Shown in pieces: positions 10,113 through 34,465 of a stretch of DNA of 64,000 nucleotides. Below the pieces are notes generated by a model, which had not been told where the DNA came from, did no database searches, and saw only the letters and a program-made list of their open reading frames with translations. Position numbers and translations under genes: made by a program. This stretch comes from Streptomyces sp. (GTDB lineage: Bacteria > Actinomycetota > Actinomycetes > Streptomycetales > Streptomycetaceae): positions 9,381 to 73,380 of the forward strand of contig NZ_JAPSKN010000008.1 of assembly GCF_031181705.1 (NCBI RefSeq), read 5' to 3'. Within the stretch, counting starts at the first letter, position 1; each line of letters starts with the position of its first letter.

Positions 10113-10118
10113 GGTCGG

Positions 10119-10192
10119 TGCGCCGCCAGGGACTCGAACCCCGGACCCGCTGATTAAGAGTCAGCTGCTCTAACCAACTGAGCTAGCGGCGC
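10119..10192 (-). tRNA. tRNA-Lys (anticodon CTT), copy 1
   Basis: The 74-base minus-strand sequence folds as a cloverleaf: acceptor GCGCCGC/GCGGCGC, D-loop AGTTGGTTAGA, anticodon loop CTCTTAA giving CTT, T-arm GGGTTCGAGTCC. The discriminator base is A and CCA is not encoded. It is identical base for base to the copies at 14444 and 28251. Confidence 0.97.
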
Positions 10193-14332: not shown

Positions 14333-14443
14333 GGCAGGGGGTGTGGGTGGCGGAGCCCCCACACCGCGCGGCGAAGCCGCGCAATGACAGAGATGGCGAG
14401 GTGGTTCGCGCTTTTCTGCGAACACGCCTCGCCATCGTCACCG

Positions 14444-14517
14444 TGCGCCGCCAGGGACTCGAACCCCGGACCCGCTGATTAAGAGTCAGCTGCTCTAACC
14501 AACTGAGCTAGCGGCGC
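14444..14517 (-). tRNA. tRNA-Lys (anticodon CTT), copy 2
   Basis: 74 bases identical to copies 1 and 3: acceptor GCGCCGC/GCGGCGC, anticodon loop CTCTTAA, discriminator A, no encoded CCA. The 5' flank differs from those of the other two copies. Confidence 0.97.
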
Positions 14518-28242: not shown

Positions 28243-28250
28243 CACTGTCG

Positions 28251-28324
28251 TGCGCCGCCAGGGACTCGAACCCCGGACCCGCTGATTAAGAGTCAGCTGC
28301 TCTAACCAACTGAGCTAGCGGCGC
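28251..28324 (-). tRNA. tRNA-Lys (anticodon CTT), copy 3
   Basis: 74 bases identical to copies 1 and 2. Its first ten bases overlap the end of the Prim-Pol-like gene on the same strand. The 12 bases GCTGACGTCGTA two bases beyond the 5' end also occur at the same distance beside copy 1. Confidence 0.97.
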
Positions 28325-29052: not shown

Positions 29053-29403
29053 TCACCGGCTCTCGGCGTCGCCCCGCATCAGGTCCCGTCCGAACTCGAC
29101 CATCTTCTTGGCGTAGTCCTCGGTCCACTCGGCCCGCTCGGCGATGTCCGCCGTCGTCAGCCGGTCGAACCGCCGCGGATCGGCCAGCTGCGCCGCCGCC
29201 ATCGCCTGGAACTCCACCGCCCGGTCCGCCGCGGCCCGGAAGGCCAGCGTCAGCTCCGTGGCCCGGGCCAGCAGGGCCCGTGGGTCGTCGATCGACTCGA
29301 GGTCGAAGAAGTGCTCAGGGTCCGAGGCCGCCTCCGCGGGCTCGAAGAGCAGGGGCGCGGGGCGTAGCCGCGGTTCGTTCCGACGCGGCGTGGGCTCCGC
29401 CAT
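29053..29403 (-). CDS. Small helical protein of unknown function
   Basis: A 116-residue cytosolic protein; the ATG at 29403 has a strong GAGGAGGAG site. The first 30 residues are Pro/Arg-rich; the rest is predicted helical (ARATELTLAFRAAADRAVEFQAMAAAQL, then RLTTADIAERAEWTEDYAKKMVEFGRDL). The second part could be an HTH-like helical hairpin, but I do not recognise a family. It sits 122 bases downstream of the helicase gene on the same strand and may be co-transcribed with it. Confidence 0.65.
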   Translation of the reverse strand: MAEPTPRRNEPRLRPAPLLFEPAEAASDPEHFFDLESIDDPRALLARATELTLAFRAAADRAVEFQAMAAAQLADPRRFDRLTTADIAERAEWTEDYAKKMVEFGRDLMRGDAESR

Positions 29404-29525: not shown

Positions 29526-30860
29526 CTACGGCCGCCAGGACACGCGATGTTCGGCCAGGTGCGCCAGCACCGCGTGGTTGGCCTCCCAGCCGTCCGGGAA
29601 CTTCACCACCGTCCCCAGCTGCACCGGCTCCGTCGACGGATAGTCGTCCAGCAGTCCGGTCACCCCCGCCCGGCACACCACGATGCAGGCGTGCCGGTGG
29701 CGCGAGGTCAGGACGCACAGACGGCCCGTCTCCAGATGGAAGGCGGTGGCGTCGGGGCGGCCGGACAGGGGGTGGAGGACCACCGTGACGTCGTACTCAC
29801 GGCCCTGCAGCCGGTTCGCCGTGTCCACGACCACGTCGGTGACGCCCAGCTCGGCCAGGGCCGCGCGGACCGCGGCCGCCTGGTCCCGGTGTGCCGTGCC
29901 CACGGCGATCCGGTCGGCCGTGAGCGGGGACGGGTCGGGCGAGGCTTCCGAGGTCGCCGCACCGCCGCGGTCCAGCAGGCGGCGCACCACCGCCGCCACC
30001 GCCCGCACCGCCTCCGGGTCCGTGCGCGGGGTGTGCCGCGCGGGCAGCTCCAGCAGGCCCCAGCCCGACGCCGCCGCCTCGTCGATCACCCGGTCCGGGC
30101 CCGAGCCGTCCGACGGCACCGCGAAGGCCAGGGCGCGGTCGCCGGGTCCGGTGCCGCTGCGGAACGGCGTGTACGGGTAGAAGGCGTCCGAGACCAGGGG
30201 CGCCGCCGAGGCCGGGAGCCGCCAGGACACCGGCAGCCGGTGCTGGGGCAGGTCCGGGTTGTGCGCGAGCAGGGTCGTCACCGCCGAGGCCGACGGGTCG
30301 TAGGCGAGGCCCGCCCACTGCTCACTGCCCACGATCGAGAACGGGTCCAGCTGCCCCGGGTCGCCCACGAACAGCGCCCGCTCGAACAGCCCGGCCACCG
30401 CGAGCAGGGCGTCCGAGCGCATCTGGTAGGCCTCGTCGACGATCGCGTACCGCCAGGGCTCGTCGGTCTTCACGTGCGCCCACTTCGCCGCCGTGGAGAT
30501 CACCACGGCCAGCCCGGCGAGGTCGGCCGCCTTCGCCGACTTGCGGACGTTGTCCAGGCCGTCGAGCGCCTTGTCGTAGGGGTCGGCGTCACTGCTGTGC
30601 AGCCGCCCCACGGGCAGCTCGGGGTCCTTCCCGGCCAGCCGCAGGACCAGGTCGTCGACCTGGGCGTTGGTCTGCGCGACCACCATCAGCGGGTGACCGG
30701 CCCCGGCCAGCTCCAGAGCCGCGCGCACGACCAGGGTCGACTTGCCCGCGCCGGGCGGGGAGTCCACGACGACTCCGCGCGCGGTGCCGTGCAGCGTGTC
30801 GTGGAGGATCGCGTCGGTGGCCTGGGCCGCAGCGGCCGAGGGGTCGAACACCGTGGTCAC
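29526..30860 (-). CDS. Superfamily 1B (Upf1/Dna2-like) DNA helicase
   Basis: A 444-residue helicase core. Motif I GAGKST (37-42), Ia VVAQTNAQVDDL, II VDEAY (141-145), III FVGDPGQLDPF (166-170), IV SWR (212-214), V VDTANRLQGREYD (345-357) and VI VLTSRHRH (383-390) are all present and in order, with the Gln of motif III and the VDT-x3-QG-xE pattern typical of Upf1/Dna2. The core is minimal: no nuclease and no clear beta-barrel 1B insertion. Its GTG start overlaps the stop of the 530-residue protein by four bases. Likely an ATP-driven 5'-3' translocase working with the other two operon products. Confidence 0.88.
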   Translation of the reverse strand: MTTVFDPSAAAAQATDAILHDTLHGTARGVVVDSPPGAGKSTLVVRAALELAGAGHPLMVVAQTNAQVDDLVLRLAGKDPELPVGRLHSSDADPYDKALDGLDNVRKSAKAADLAGLAVVISTAAKWAHVKTDEPWRYAIVDEAYQMRSDALLAVAGLFERALFVGDPGQLDPFSIVGSEQWAGLAYDPSASAVTTLLAHNPDLPQHRLPVSWRLPASAAPLVSDAFYPYTPFRSGTGPGDRALAFAVPSDGSGPDRVIDEAAASGWGLLELPARHTPRTDPEAVRAVAAVVRRLLDRGGAATSEASPDPSPLTADRIAVGTAHRDQAAAVRAALAELGVTDVVVDTANRLQGREYDVTVVLHPLSGRPDATAFHLETGRLCVLTSRHRHACIVVCRAGVTGLLDDYPSTEPVQLGTVVKFPDGWEANHAVLAHLAEHRVSWRP

Positions 30861-32449
30861 AGCACATCCTCCTCGGTCACCGGATCGGCTGCCTCCAGGG
30901 TCGCCTCACCGGGCGGCCCGCCGTGCGTCCACGGGGTCTCCTCCGGGTCGGGGAGCTTCGCGCCGCCGCGCTGCTCGTGCTCGAAGAGCGTGAAGCAGAC
31001 CCGGTCGCCCTTCTCCGGCACCGATCCCGGCTCGGGCTCCTTGCCGCGCCCCATCTTGTCGAGGATCCGCAGCACGAGGTACGCGCCGTCCTCCTCGGCC
31101 GTGACGAACTCCGCCGACTGCGGCTTCCCGCCCAGCGAGCGGTACACCTTCGCGCGCTCCCCGAGATGCGGCCGGTCGTCCGTGCGGACCGTCACCAGGG
31201 GGCGGGGGCTGGGGCGCTTGCCGTCGCTGTACGCCATCACCACCTCGGTGACCTCGCCCGCGAACGCCTCACCGGACAGCCGCCGGCCCGCCATCACCAG
31301 CGGGTCGTCGAGGGCCTCCTGCGCCTCCAGCCGGGCCTGTTCGCGCTCCCGGGTGGCGAGTTTGTTCGCCGCGGTGACCGCGTCGTCGCGGCGGGGCTGC
31401 GGGGGCTCGCCGGCCAGGACCCGGTCGCGGTGGCCGGTGAACGACCAGCGGTCGCGCGTCCAGCGCTCCTCGACATGCGCCCCCGGGGGCAGCGCGCGCA
31501 GCAGGTCCAGGCCCCGCCAGACCGCGTCCCAGGTGGGCCGGGTGCGGCTGAGCACCAGGTCGCGGATCTCCCGCTCGGCGGCGGTCAGCACGCCCAGCCG
31601 CTCGTCGGCCTCCAGGCCGTCCTCGGCGGCCGCGAGGGCCGTGCGGGCACGGTCGTAGCGCTCGATGGCCGGGGCGAGGAGCTTGTTGTCGAAGGCCGGG
31701 TCGGTGGCCGGACCGGCCGGGGGACAGACCAGCTGGCCCTGCGCGTCCCGCTCCAGCTCGGCCCGCAGCGCCGCCACGGCGCCGGTGACGCCCTCGGGCG
31801 GGTCGATCCAGGCGAGCAGCGCCCCCAGGTGCTGGTCCTCCAGCGTGGACTGCCCGGTCGCCCAGTGCCGGCCGAGCACGTCGGTCATCGCCAGCAGCAG
31901 CGACGAGCCCGGCACCCGGGCCCGCTCCCCGAAGTGCGTCAGCCACCGCCCGAGCAGCGGCACCCGCGGCGGCGCCGGGTAGGGCGTCTGCGGGTCCTGC
32001 TCGGCCGTGCGCCGGAACCGCGTGGACCGCCCCAGCAGCCGGACCAGCTCGATGCCCGCCCGGCTCGGCACGAGAAGCTGCGGCGCGTCCGCGCACAGGT
32101 CGACCTCGACCTTGACCCGCTTGCCGGTCTCCGGGTCGGTCTCGGTGCGCTCGGCGGCCTCCACCACCTCGCCGTACGCCTCGACGTACGGCAGGACCAC
32201 GTCGGCCAGGTCGGCCAGGAACGCGAACCTGAGGTCGCGGTCGCGGGGCTGCGGGACGACCAGCAGCCGCGGCGCGTCCCGGTCGGTGCCGACCAGCGCG
32301 CCGAGCGGGGCCCCGGCCTCACCGGCGGTGATGAGCGGCACGAACACCAGGGGACGGTCGGACAGATGGCGGTGCCGGACGGTGGCGGCGGGCTGGGCGC
32401 GGCCGGTGCTGACGGCTTCCAGGCGGGCCAGCGTGGAGATCAGCGACAC
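30857..32449 (-). CDS. Conserved protein of the nuclease-helicase operon, unknown function
   Basis: A 530-residue cytosolic protein starting with GTG, overlapping the nuclease gene by ten bases and the helicase gene by four. Residues 1-180 are alpha/beta, the middle (about 180-380) is helical and charged with Arg-rich stretches, and the last 120 residues look like a small beta-barrel (GERAKVYRSLGG ... KGDRVCFTLFEHE), the kind of fold inserted as domain 1B in Upf1/Dna2 helicases. No catalytic motif recognised. Coupling at both ends argues for a fixed-stoichiometry complex. The barrel assignment is inference. Confidence 0.8.
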   Translation of the reverse strand: MSLISTLARLEAVSTGRAQPAATVRHRHLSDRPLVFVPLITAGEAGAPLGALVGTDRDAPRLLVVPQPRDRDLRFAFLADLADVVLPYVEAYGEVVEAAERTETDPETGKRVKVEVDLCADAPQLLVPSRAGIELVRLLGRSTRFRRTAEQDPQTPYPAPPRVPLLGRWLTHFGERARVPGSSLLLAMTDVLGRHWATGQSTLEDQHLGALLAWIDPPEGVTGAVAALRAELERDAQGQLVCPPAGPATDPAFDNKLLAPAIERYDRARTALAAAEDGLEADERLGVLTAAEREIRDLVLSRTRPTWDAVWRGLDLLRALPPGAHVEERWTRDRWSFTGHRDRVLAGEPPQPRRDDAVTAANKLATREREQARLEAQEALDDPLVMAGRRLSGEAFAGEVTEVVMAYSDGKRPSPRPLVTVRTDDRPHLGERAKVYRSLGGKPQSAEFVTAEEDGAYLVLRILDKMGRGKEPEPGSVPEKGDRVCFTLFEHEQRGGAKLPDPEETPWTHGGPPGEATLEAADPVTEEDVL

Positions 32450-33561
32450 GCCGCCTCCAGGGCCTCGGCGCGCAGGGCGGCCGCGCGGCGCAGGGCCGCC
32501 ACCGCCGGGTCACCGGGATCGCCGGCCTCGCCGCGGGCCGCCGCCAGGACGTCCTCCACGGTCGTCAGACCGCCCAGCTCCGCCCGCACCGCACGGCCGA
32601 GTGAGGTCACCGCCCCCGCCTCGCGGGCCCGGGACCGGCAGTGGAAGGCCAGTTCGCACGCGGACAGGCACTCGGGCGCGTACGTCGCCGGGACCGACTC
32701 CACGGCCGCGGTCAGCTCCTCGGCGGGCAGCTCCGGGGAGAAGCACGTGCCCTCGGGGAGCGCGTCGGCGATGTCCTCGATGCGGGTCAGCCGGGCCAGC
32801 TGGCGGGCCGTCACCGCGCGCTGCTTGCGGACGTCCACCGCGGACGCCGCCGGCAGGTTGGAGAAGTCCCGGGGGCAGACCAGCAGGATCCGGTGGCGCA
32901 CGCGCGGGGCCGGATCCAGCCGGGCCGCGACCTCCTCCAGCGCCAGCACGTACACCGCGGCCTGCCGGGCCGCCGCCCCGACCTTCGCCGGGTCCGCCGA
33001 ACCGTCCAGCAGGGGAAAGGACTTGATCTCCACGACCGTCCAACTGCCGTCCGGGTGGACCACCACCGCGTCCGGCTCCAGGAACGCGGGGGAGCCCGCG
33101 ACGTCCAGCGCGAGCATCGGGTGGTCGAGCAGGGTCCACTCGCCGGGGTGCGCGGCGGCCTCCCGCAGCTCCAGCGCCGTACGGGCCGTACGCCCCTGGG
33201 GGCCGGTCGCGGTCAGGTCGGGCACCCGCGCCCCGGCGGGCGGCTCGGCCGAGCGGTCCAGCTTCTCGTGCACCAGCCGCAGCAGCTCCGCACCGCCGTC
33301 GGCCTTGACCTTCGCCTCGAAGGCGTTGCCCCGCGTGAGCGCGAACTGCGACTGCCCGAAGGCCGACGGGGCGCCCAGCGCGCTCGCCAGGGCCGTCTTG
33401 TTCACCCCGGCGCCGTCGAGGATCGCGCGCCGCGCGCAGCCGGGGTTCGCGGCCAGCGCCGCCAGGGCGCGCGCGTCCAGTGCCTTCGCGGGGACGTCGG
33501 GGCCGCGCAGCTCAGCGAGCCGCTGCCGGAGCGCCGTCCCCCGCGTCCTTGGGGGAGGCAC
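32440..33561 (-). CDS. Cas4/RecB-like PD-(D/E)XK nuclease with four candidate Fe-S cysteines
   Basis: A 373-residue protein from the GTG at 33561, chosen for a GGGAG site; GTG at 33615 or 33639 and TTG at 33645 are alternatives deeper in the PAP2 gene. Nuclease motifs are Asp164 (LEPDAVVV), Glu178-x-Lys180 (VVEIKSF) and Q-x3-Y (Gln200, RQAAVYVLAL). Four cysteines, Cys42 (NPGCARRAI) before the nuclease fold and Cys298, Cys302, Cys308 (ECLSACELAFHC) after it, are spaced like the 4Fe-4S staple of Cas4, AddB and Dna2. First gene of the coupled nuclease-530aa-helicase operon. Even the shortest start leaves its 5' end overlapping the PAP2 gene. Confidence 0.85.
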   Translation of the reverse strand: MPPPRTRGTALRQRLAELRGPDVPAKALDARALAALAANPGCARRAILDGAGVNKTALASALGAPSAFGQSQFALTRGNAFEAKVKADGGAELLRLVHEKLDRSAEPPAGARVPDLTATGPQGRTARTALELREAAAHPGEWTLLDHPMLALDVAGSPAFLEPDAVVVHPDGSWTVVEIKSFPLLDGSADPAKVGAAARQAAVYVLALEEVAARLDPAPRVRHRILLVCPRDFSNLPAASAVDVRKQRAVTARQLARLTRIEDIADALPEGTCFSPELPAEELTAAVESVPATYAPECLSACELAFHCRSRAREAGAVTSLGRAVRAELGGLTTVEDVLAAARGEAGDPGDPAVAALRRAAALRAEALEAACR

Positions 33562-34465
33562 TCGGCTCGGCTCCCGCTCCGAACCGCGACTCGCGCTGCC
33601 GTGGAATTCGCTCACCCGCGGAAGTCTGGCATCCGGCACTGACAATCGAGGAACCCGCGGCGGAAGTGTCCGCCGGGACCGGTGCGAAGCGCGGCACGAA
33701 CCGCGCCTTGACCCGGTCGGCCGTCCGCGTCACGACCGGCGCCAGCAGCAGCCCGGCGCCCATGACGGCCGCGCCCGCGACCGCGTCGAGGAAGTAGTGG
33801 TTGGCGGTGCCCATGACGACGATCGTGGTGATCAGCGGGTAGGCGACACCGGCCGCCTTCGTCAGGCGCGTACCGCCGTGGCGCCACAGGATCACGCCGC
33901 ACCACAGGGCCCAGCCCACGTGCAGGCTCGGCATCGCCGCGTACTGGTTGGTCATGTCGCCCATGCCGCGCGGGGCGCTCGCCGCGCCTCCCCACCAGCC
34001 GTAGGAGCTGTACTGCGCCATCGTGTCCACGAAGCCGTGGCGCGCGTCGAGGAGCCGGGGCGGGCAGGTCGGCAGCAGCGTGAAGCCGATCAGGCCGATG
34101 AGCGTGGACGTCATCAGCCAGGTGCGCGCGGCGCGGTAGCGCACGGCCCGGGAGCGGAAGAGCCACACCAGCAGGGCCGGGGTCACCAGGTAGTGCAGCG
34201 ACGCGTACCAGAAGTCGGCGGGTATGCCTATCCAGGGTTCGCGCGTGAAGAGGCGGTTGAGCGGGTGCTCGAAGTTCACATGCAGCGCCTTCTCGGCGCG
34301 CAGGAGGGCCAGACCGTGGTCGACCGCCCCGGCGACGTCGCCCCGGGCCAGGAGCCGGCCCGCCGAGTAGCACGCGTACACCAGCACGATCAGCGGAAGC
34401 TCCGTCCACCAGCGCAGCCGCGGTGCGGGGTCCGCCTCGGTGCCCGGTGTCTCGGTGTGCGGCAT
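33512..34465 (-). CDS. PAP2-superfamily membrane phosphatase/inositolphosphotransferase
   Basis: A 317-residue protein with about six transmembrane helices. PAP2 motifs are AAMPSLHVGWALWCG and GTANHYFLDAVAG, with an upstream LPTCPPRLLD segment typical of AUR1/Ipt1-like enzymes. The C-terminal 75 residues form a polar tail that overlaps the start of the nuclease gene in another frame. A GGGGGAGGG ribosome site precedes the ATG. It acts on a lipid phosphate or phosphodiester at the membrane; the substrate is unknown. Confidence 0.9.
   Translation of the reverse strand: MPHTETPGTEADPAPRLRWWTELPLIVLVYACYSAGRLLARGDVAGAVDHGLALLRAEKALHVNFEHPLNRLFTREPWIGIPADFWYASLHYLVTPALLVWLFRSRAVRYRAARTWLMTSTLIGLIGFTLLPTCPPRLLDARHGFVDTMAQYSSYGWWGGAASAPRGMGDMTNQYAAMPSLHVGWALWCGVILWRHGGTRLTKAAGVAYPLITTIVVMGTANHYFLDAVAGAAVMGAGLLLAPVVTRTADRVKARFVPRFAPVPADTSAAGSSIVSAGCQTSAGERIPRQRESRFGAGAEPSASPKDAGDGAPAAAR

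Follow-up and report, generated by a model that had tools for sequence, protein, structure and literature searches.

A predicted three-gene helicase–nuclease module of Streptomyces with a probable, uncommon break inside its helicase and a proposed double life in core genome and defence islands

A module of three minus-strand genes, here called NUC, MID, and HEL, lies within a 64,000-nucleotide (nt) stretch of Streptomyces sp. DNA (contig NZ_JAPSKN010000008.1, positions 9,381 to 73,380; hereafter, the window). We consider it probable, on balance, that the three products form a three-subunit ATP-driven DNA helicase–nuclease, which serves in housekeeping end processing as a core copy and has been reused in defence as accessory copies. 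In the best reading of the predicted folds, NUC–MID–HEL is the split counterpart of fused bacterial proteins, which combine a Cas4-type nuclease, an RNase H domain, and a superfamily 1B (SF1B) helicase motor, and of eukaryotic Dna2. The middle subunit MID, left blank in an earlier interpretation of the same DNA (the original prediction), is predicted to carry a barrel domain that has no place in HEL, so that the break would run through the helicase. This reading draws on gene order, coupling, conservation, co-inheritance, and gene neighbours, together with predicted folds. The original prediction had proposed one split Dna2/AddAB-like end-processing machine, and the proposal gains support from the adjacency and co-inheritance of the genes, the conserved residues, the fold of NUC, and the profile match of HEL to DNA2.

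The sequence of HEL scored above the cut-offs of the Pfam families AAA_11 (E 2.8e-11) and AAA_12 (E 1.5e-7), and its profile matched DNA2 (E 2.1e-10), SMUBP-2 (E 2.3e-10), and Upf1 (E 1.7e-6) among solved structures. The SF1B motifs that had been read from the sequence are present at the positions given for them, and K40, D142, E143, Q170, R214, Q352, E355, and R387 are invariant across 154 distinct homologues. Judged by sequence, HEL is an Upf1/Dna2-type SF1B motor; against the UvrD-helicase family it reached only E 0.11 (12.6 bits; cut-off, 23), which does not qualify it as an SF1A (UvrD-type) motor. Matches in PADLOC were partial and at the helicase level (best, MkoC, 7.4e-8), and the match to the NCBIfam helicase of the PLuB system, NF040671 (56.1 bits; E 1.1e-15), lay below the cut-off of 999. 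The closest relatives found for HEL are the motors of the fused TM0106-type proteins, with which it aligned end to end in hhalign (363 columns; E 4.1e-22). Eukaryotic Dna2, although matched by both HEL and NUC, is thus not the nearest relative found for the motor.

In NUC, the cysteines and nuclease residues named in the original prediction (C42, C298, C302, C308, D164, E178, K180, Q200, and Y204) were all found in place, and they are conserved beyond what chance would give: among 153 distinct homologues, C298, C302, C308, D164, Q200, and Y204 are invariant, C42 is Cys in 152 with one gap, and E178 and K180 are kept in 148, the other five having Leu and Arg. NUC itself gave no match at E ≤ 1 in Pfam, NCBIfam, PADLOC, or PHROG, and Pfam PDDEXK_1 matched three of 18 NUC homologues (best E, 0.0023). 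The AlphaFold2 model of NUC (predicted local distance difference test (pLDDT), 92.2; predicted template-modelling score (pTM), 0.86; 43 rows in the alignment, 171 NUC genes having been called overall) had Argonaute-associated Cas4, MGME1, and RecE as its top Foldseek matches, and was aligned by VIA-align with Cas4 (7mi4; Z 11.0), Exo5 (9.5), AddA (8.4), RecB (8.3), AdnA (8.3), and Dna2 (7.0–7.1 over 205–211 residues). Because of these matches, NUC is predicted to be a member of the Cas4/RecB exonuclease fold. Matches to designed repeat proteins in the Protein Data Bank (PDB), which cover 30 residues, were rejected.

For MID, searches of Pfam, NCBIfam, PADLOC, PHROG, and PDB sequences gave nothing relevant (no match at E ≤ 1 in NCBIfam and PADLOC). 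A Caa3_CtaG match in 21 of 57 homologues (best E, 0.0014; MID itself, 14.8 bits against a cut-off of 27.7) was rejected as chance, and RNase_H_2 was not among the 11 Pfam families seen in these 57 homologues at E ≤ 1. The MID model (pLDDT 91.4; pTM 0.88), for which BFVD gave no match at E ≤ 0.001, was built from an alignment of 55 rows, 178 MID genes having been called and a frame-broken (L037) and a cut (L110) copy excluded. Residues 31–384 aligned with the exonuclease domain of archaeal family-B polymerases (VIA-align Z up to 9.3; 172–198 residues; root-mean-square deviation (rmsd), 3.6–4.7), and are predicted to carry an RNase H-like fold. This domain is probably inactive: in a comparison by eye with known motifs, the first catalytic Asp position is occupied by P38, a Pro in 156 of 158 homologues, while D205, positioned like the last catalytic residue, is kept in 157 of the 158.

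In the SF1B family, the β-barrel domain 1B comes before the P-loop. The barrel cannot sit in HEL, because the HEL P-loop begins at residue 34. In MID, residues 388–490 form a predicted barrel that aligned with those of senataxin (8ftm_B; Z 8.2, 85 residues, rmsd 3.0) and Sen1 (8rao_O; Z 8.0), although Z-scores near 8 in VIA-align can reflect a common arrangement and the fold alone is not decisive; UPF1 and Dna2 structures are missing among the VIA-align matches listed for MID, an absence that does not exclude them. The barrel of MID ends directly before HEL begins in gene order, and in the fused bacterial homologues, with their P-loop near residue 755 of 1132, the RNase H domain is separated from the P-loop by ~260 residues, in which the barrel part would lie. 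From the fold, the position of the HEL P-loop, the gene order, and the spacing in the fused proteins combined, we infer that MID supplies HEL with domain 1B. The split would thus probably fall inside the helicase, separating domain 1B from the motor.

The three genes are inherited together as a core set of the Streptomyces family. Genome-wide searches found MID in 32 of 41 genomes of relatives, including the source genome (completeness, only 81%) and 24/24 of the same genus, and in 24 of 396 genomes of an even draw of the phylum, 20 of these 24 being of the same genus, source included. Among 200 genomes of the family (16 genera), of which a part was searched for HEL, MID and NUC were each found in 197 and together in 196. 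Both genes are missing from two genomes (G511 and G454), in which HEL gave no more than weak helicase matches. One gene alone was found in G468 (MID) and in G609 (NUC), two heavily fragmented assemblies of 1290–1650 contigs in which HEL is complete. The order NUC, MID, HEL is kept without interruption in 126 of 131 distinct core places, the exceptions being three places cut by a contig end, one with a gap of ~1.1 kb (L054), and one without NUC (L037). NUC and MID overlap by 10 nt in 114 loci rows and by 4 nt in 38, and MID and HEL by 4 nt in 122, counts in which some places are represented twice. In two genomes (G231 and G366), NUC and MID are adjacent and a full-length HEL lies ~36 and ~49 kb off, all three being kept though unlinked. 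Pairwise distances of NUC, MID, and HEL correlate at 0.936, 0.946, and 0.969 in a set of 51 hand-chosen loci. Adjacency and co-inheritance, on which the original prediction had staked the module, are thus confirmed. The surroundings of the core copy are also fixed: 93 of 95 rows show a gene of the PAP2-like or histidine-phosphatase-like kind upstream, and 72 of the 75 rows that extend far enough have a gene for a 116-residue protein downstream.

Accessory copies have different surroundings. Twenty-one such loci were opened, which came from second matches of the genome searches and from three records of the plasmid collection and were not selected by their neighbours; further second matches and fourth-gene matches exist beyond them. 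In all 21, a fourth gene, UP281 (UP), whose product has no clear family, stands ahead of the set. In 12 of the 21, SbcC and SbcD genes stand divergently upstream of the cassette, broken into pieces in one locus (L021) and with only SbcD seen in another (L031). Wadjet genes lie near nine of these 12 loci vs none of the nine loci lacking SbcCD (Fisher p 0.0011, a value that overstates independence, as the Wadjet-linked loci are partly close relatives). The absence of Wadjet near the nine loci comes from family searches of eight genomes and, for L023, from tblastn in 17 kb, and one of the three SbcCD loci without nearby Wadjet (L032) ends 1.8 kb past HEL. In L021, L022, and L173, HEL is followed at once or after one intervening gene by a JetA1-type gene (DUF3375), and a JetA-type DUF3375 gene broken by stop codons stands right after HEL in L030 (G037:C112, ~138283-139021); JetA2/JetB2-type genes (DUF2397/DUF2398) follow HEL in L028, L031, and L152, and DUF2398 is found beyond SbcC in L161 and L156. 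Since close relatives hold different Wadjet types (L028 vs L030; L022 vs L031), the distribution speaks for repeated pairing of cassette and Wadjet. A helicase with ResIII and helicase-associated (HA) domains is also seen beside SbcCD-type cassettes, after HEL in L156, L173, and L178 and on the far side in L172.

In five further accessory loci, the cassette is oriented divergently from two genes, a DinG-type pPIWI-RE_Z gene and one of the PD-(D/E)XK type, named PprDinG and PprPDDEXK by PADLOC in L157, and HmaA/HmaB or restriction-like genes follow downstream. The link to pPIWI-RE is based on these two genes. All five NUC homologues with Leu and Arg at E178 and K180 belong here (L157, L158, L176, L177, and L029); they retain the cysteines and the remaining active-site residues, and may be inactive as nucleases. 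The extra PD-(D/E)XK gene was considered as a substitute for the altered NUC, an idea that was dropped because PADLOC calls it a pPIWI-RE component.

With such neighbours, to which GmrSD is to be added, the core copy itself might be an innate defence against phages and plasmids that became fixed in Streptomycetaceae and degrades invading DNA ends. A divergent cassette on a metagenomic viral contig (IMG/VR; 43.5 kb) points the same way: homologues of UP, NUC, MID, and HEL keep their order and are separated by 0, −4, and −4 nt (L233:3887-8477), between a phage-type integrase gene and genes for Vsr and a C5 methylase, with significant matches of 2.6e-13 for UP, 4.9e-14 for NUC, and 3.3e-15 for MID, 30% identity for HEL, and the cysteines and D...D-x-K of NUC retained. 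A further viral contig or a phage record with the cassette was not found. We nevertheless regard a defence role of the core copy as unlikely. Its near-universal presence in the family and its fixed neighbours look like those of a housekeeping gene set, and no Jet gene was matched in 144 core loci rows; the accessory cassettes are patchy, unlike the core copy, with the fourth gene seen in 14 of 119 genomes of the order; and no defence family matched NUC or MID (no match at E ≤ 1 in PADLOC-DB 2.0.0, and no PADLOC system model fitting the module). The alternative 'repair or defence' of the original prediction is accordingly divided between the copies, the core copy looking like housekeeping and the accessory copies lying in defence islands.

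Actinobacterial plasmids hold a more distant form. Of the plasmid records, 53 encode a HEL-like protein and 44 carry a gene with weak similarity to MID (P 1.1e-4; 256 columns), the two being adjacent in 26 of the 28 records listed for both. In the four records that were opened, the pair stands after a VWA-like gene, with a listed AAA/MoxR gene in three, and no NUC was seen. The block reads AAA/MoxR-like, VWA-like (DUF2201), small, MID-like, and HEL-like genes in plasmids of Rhodococcus, Mycobacterium, and Xylanimonas (L236, L237, L238, and L239). As these pairs occur without NUC, it seems that MID and HEL are the fixed partners, with the nuclease as one attachment among several. A bolder reading, which we put forward tentatively and with less confidence than that of the three-subunit machine, is that MID–HEL represents an SF1B helicase split in a new way, with domain 1B parted from the motor, and a general engine with exchangeable effectors: the Cas4-type nuclease in the core copy, the same nuclease with Mre11–Rad50 behind Wadjet or pPIWI-RE, and AAA (MoxR-like) and VWA proteins on large, often linear plasmids.

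Three of the four opened plasmid records are recorded as linear, and the core copy is a hallmark of the Streptomyces family, in which chromosomes are linear. Linear chromosomes are likewise stated for Streptomyces in the literature (PMC5869714), and three accessory cassettes with Wadjet nearby are situated close to the ends of their records. A machine that processes the telomeres of linear replicons, for example by preparing 3′ overhangs or by patching, would fit these observations, but MID occurs in only two Streptomyces records among 72,556 plasmids, the Nonomuraea record is given as circular, and other accessory copies, on the complete single contigs of G009, G504, and G513, are far from the ends, which makes a telomeric role very improbable.

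We infer that NUC, MID, and HEL form a complex with an iron–sulphur cluster, a domain swap, and helicase–nuclease activity, in the following pathway. MID–HEL would load on a free DNA end or flap, and HEL, a RecA-like motor, would unwind the DNA, with MID giving the stalk and barrel (domain 1B) in trans to grip and split it, the barrel acting as the wedge. The RNase H-like domain of MID would probably bind DNA without cutting. The displaced strand would then be fed to NUC, clamped by its iron–sulphur cluster, and cut. The core copy most likely serves housekeeping processing of DNA ends (breaks, flaps, or stalled forks) beside AdnAB in Streptomycetaceae. Wadjet is reported to cut small circular plasmids (a reference cited in PMC12624138); at accessory loci, SbcCD (Mre11–Rad50) might open or trim the ends made by Wadjet or pPIWI-RE, and the machine finish the DNA. 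The same parts could instead be taken for an Upf1/Setx-type RNA or R-loop helicase, the module clearing transcription-linked hybrids rather than acting on DNA ends, given that HEL is equally close to SMUBP-2 and DNA2, that the MID barrel resembles those of Setx and Sen1, and that some paralogues neighbour pPIWI-RE, which is proposed as an R-loop actor (PMC3702460). To this we give little credence, as a conserved nuclease of the Cas4/RecB type is the constant companion of MID and HEL, in the core as in the 21 accessory loci, and no accessory neighbour is seen more often than SbcCD.

Several observations weigh against the preferred reading of a split helicase–nuclease with a housekeeping core copy. 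The whole chain of MID found nothing in Foldseek at E ≤ 0.001, and its barrel ties with FAD-type barrels at Z 8.0–8.2 and with ATPase barrels. In profile comparison with the fused proteins, no similarity was found for MID; a slice of MID (residues 250–500) against the expected fused slice gave a best P of 0.015 in hhalign, which was not taken as proof; and NUC fell in register over the active site and cysteines without significance (P 0.16). In the five NUC homologues at pPIWI-RE-linked loci, E178 and K180 are changed. At L037, a Streptomyces-type locus (G010:C2, ~4561171-4563969), NUC is lost and MID frame-broken next to an intact HEL; because of this genome and the two family genomes without the set, the module cannot be strictly essential. 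Finally, no LexA-like (SOS) box was found before NUC, seven one-mismatch sites occurring in a scan of the window vs 3.1 expected.

The features of the module are compiled below. The ORF coordinates agree with the claim of three minus-strand genes overlapping by 10 (NUC/MID) and 4 (MID/HEL) bases. The start of NUC is not fixed: the GTG used here gives a 50-nt overlap with the PAP2-like open reading frame (ORF), and an in-frame TTG at 33645 is an alternative. The 116-residue protein, which had no match at E ≤ 1 in Pfam, NCBIfam, or PADLOC, is a constant neighbour and a candidate member of the machine. Elsewhere in the window, three tRNA-Lys (CTT) genes of identical sequence lie on the minus strand (10117-10192, 14443-14517, and 28250-28324; within 18 kb).

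Table 1. Module genes, predicted functional segments, and flanking genes in the window (aa, amino acids)
Feature	Position	Strand	Description
NUC	32440..33561	minus	373 aa; PD-(D/E)XK nuclease, Cas4/RecB type, four conserved Cys (predicted 4Fe-4S)
NUC active-site stretch	33022..33072	minus	D164 ... E178-x-K180; coordinates hand-converted from residue numbers
MID	30857..32449	minus	530 aa; predicted RNase H-like domain, helical region, and C-terminal β-barrel
MID residues 388-490	30980..31288	minus	predicted barrel like SF1B domain 1B of senataxin/Sen1; hand-converted coordinates
HEL	29526..30860	minus	444 aa; SF1B motor (AAA_11/AAA_12), no space for domain 1B ahead of P-loop
HEL P-loop, residues 34-41	30738..30761	minus	SPPGAGKS; hand-converted coordinates
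116-aa gene	29053..29403	minus	downstream conserved core neighbour, kept 3′ of HEL; no family assigned
PAP2-like ORF	33512-34465		upstream of NUC; 50-nt overlap with it

We found no description of the three-gene module in the open-access literature, the extent of our search, which subscription papers and preprints lay outside. The adnAB genes are reported to be essential in Streptomyces (a reference cited in PMC5869714), and non-homologous end joining is the other focus when break repair in this genus is discussed. AdnAB is the main helicase–nuclease described for Streptomyces, and the discussion of break repair is built around it (PMC5869714). If the reading proposed here is true, a second helicase–nuclease, conserved like a core gene, has been overlooked in the family that makes most clinical antibiotics, and it would show Dna2 taken apart by nature into separable pieces, the helicase being split within its own fold. 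Mre11–Rad50 and Dna2 are the eukaryotic pair for DNA-end resection; the accessory cassettes would tie Mre11–Rad50 and a Dna2-like enzyme to Wadjet and pPIWI-RE immunity, and would suggest how DNA cut by these systems gets finished off.

Among known systems, the pPIWI-RE three-gene island shares with five accessory cassettes the DinG-type and PD-(D/E)XK genes to which they are divergent, and no Dna2-like partner is described for it in the available text of the island paper ('Dna2', 0 occurrences; PMC3702460). Wadjet (JetABCD) and SbcCD are frequent neighbours of the four-gene cassette, yet different proteins; the PADLOC Jet models do not include the cassette genes, and the cassette occurs without Wadjet too. 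AddAB, AdnAB, and RecBCD resemble the module as multi-subunit DNA-end helicase–nucleases with RecB-family nucleases, to which the NUC model aligned with Z ~8, but their motors are of the UvrD-type SF1A, whereas that of HEL is AAA_11/AAA_12. Eukaryotic Dna2 combines a Cas4-like iron–sulphur nuclease, as predicted here for NUC, with an Upf1-type SF1B helicase, on a single chain, where three ORFs are found here and the 1B barrel is apparently carried by the middle subunit. Cleavage of 5′ and 3′ flaps and 5′-3′ unwinding are further traits of Dna2-type enzymes. The fused TM0106-type proteins (TIGR03491 region and helicase; ~1130–1220 residues) have the same order of parts, nuclease, RNase H-like domain, and SF1B motor; in 11 aligned proteins, the nuclease, RNase_H_2, and AAA_11/AAA_12 are on one chain, with one Cys before and three after the nuclease core, as in NUC. 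They differ in being one chain instead of three, and in an RNase_H_2 domain that is recognisable by sequence, unlike the predicted one of MID; neither NUC nor MID matched TIGR03491 in NCBIfam at E ≤ 1. TIGR03491 scored over its cut-off in 15 of 149 genomes of the phylum, and in 0/4 of the Streptomyces-type genomes in that sample. Altogether, the module resembles a split version of these fused proteins, with sequence evidence for common descent in the motor alone.

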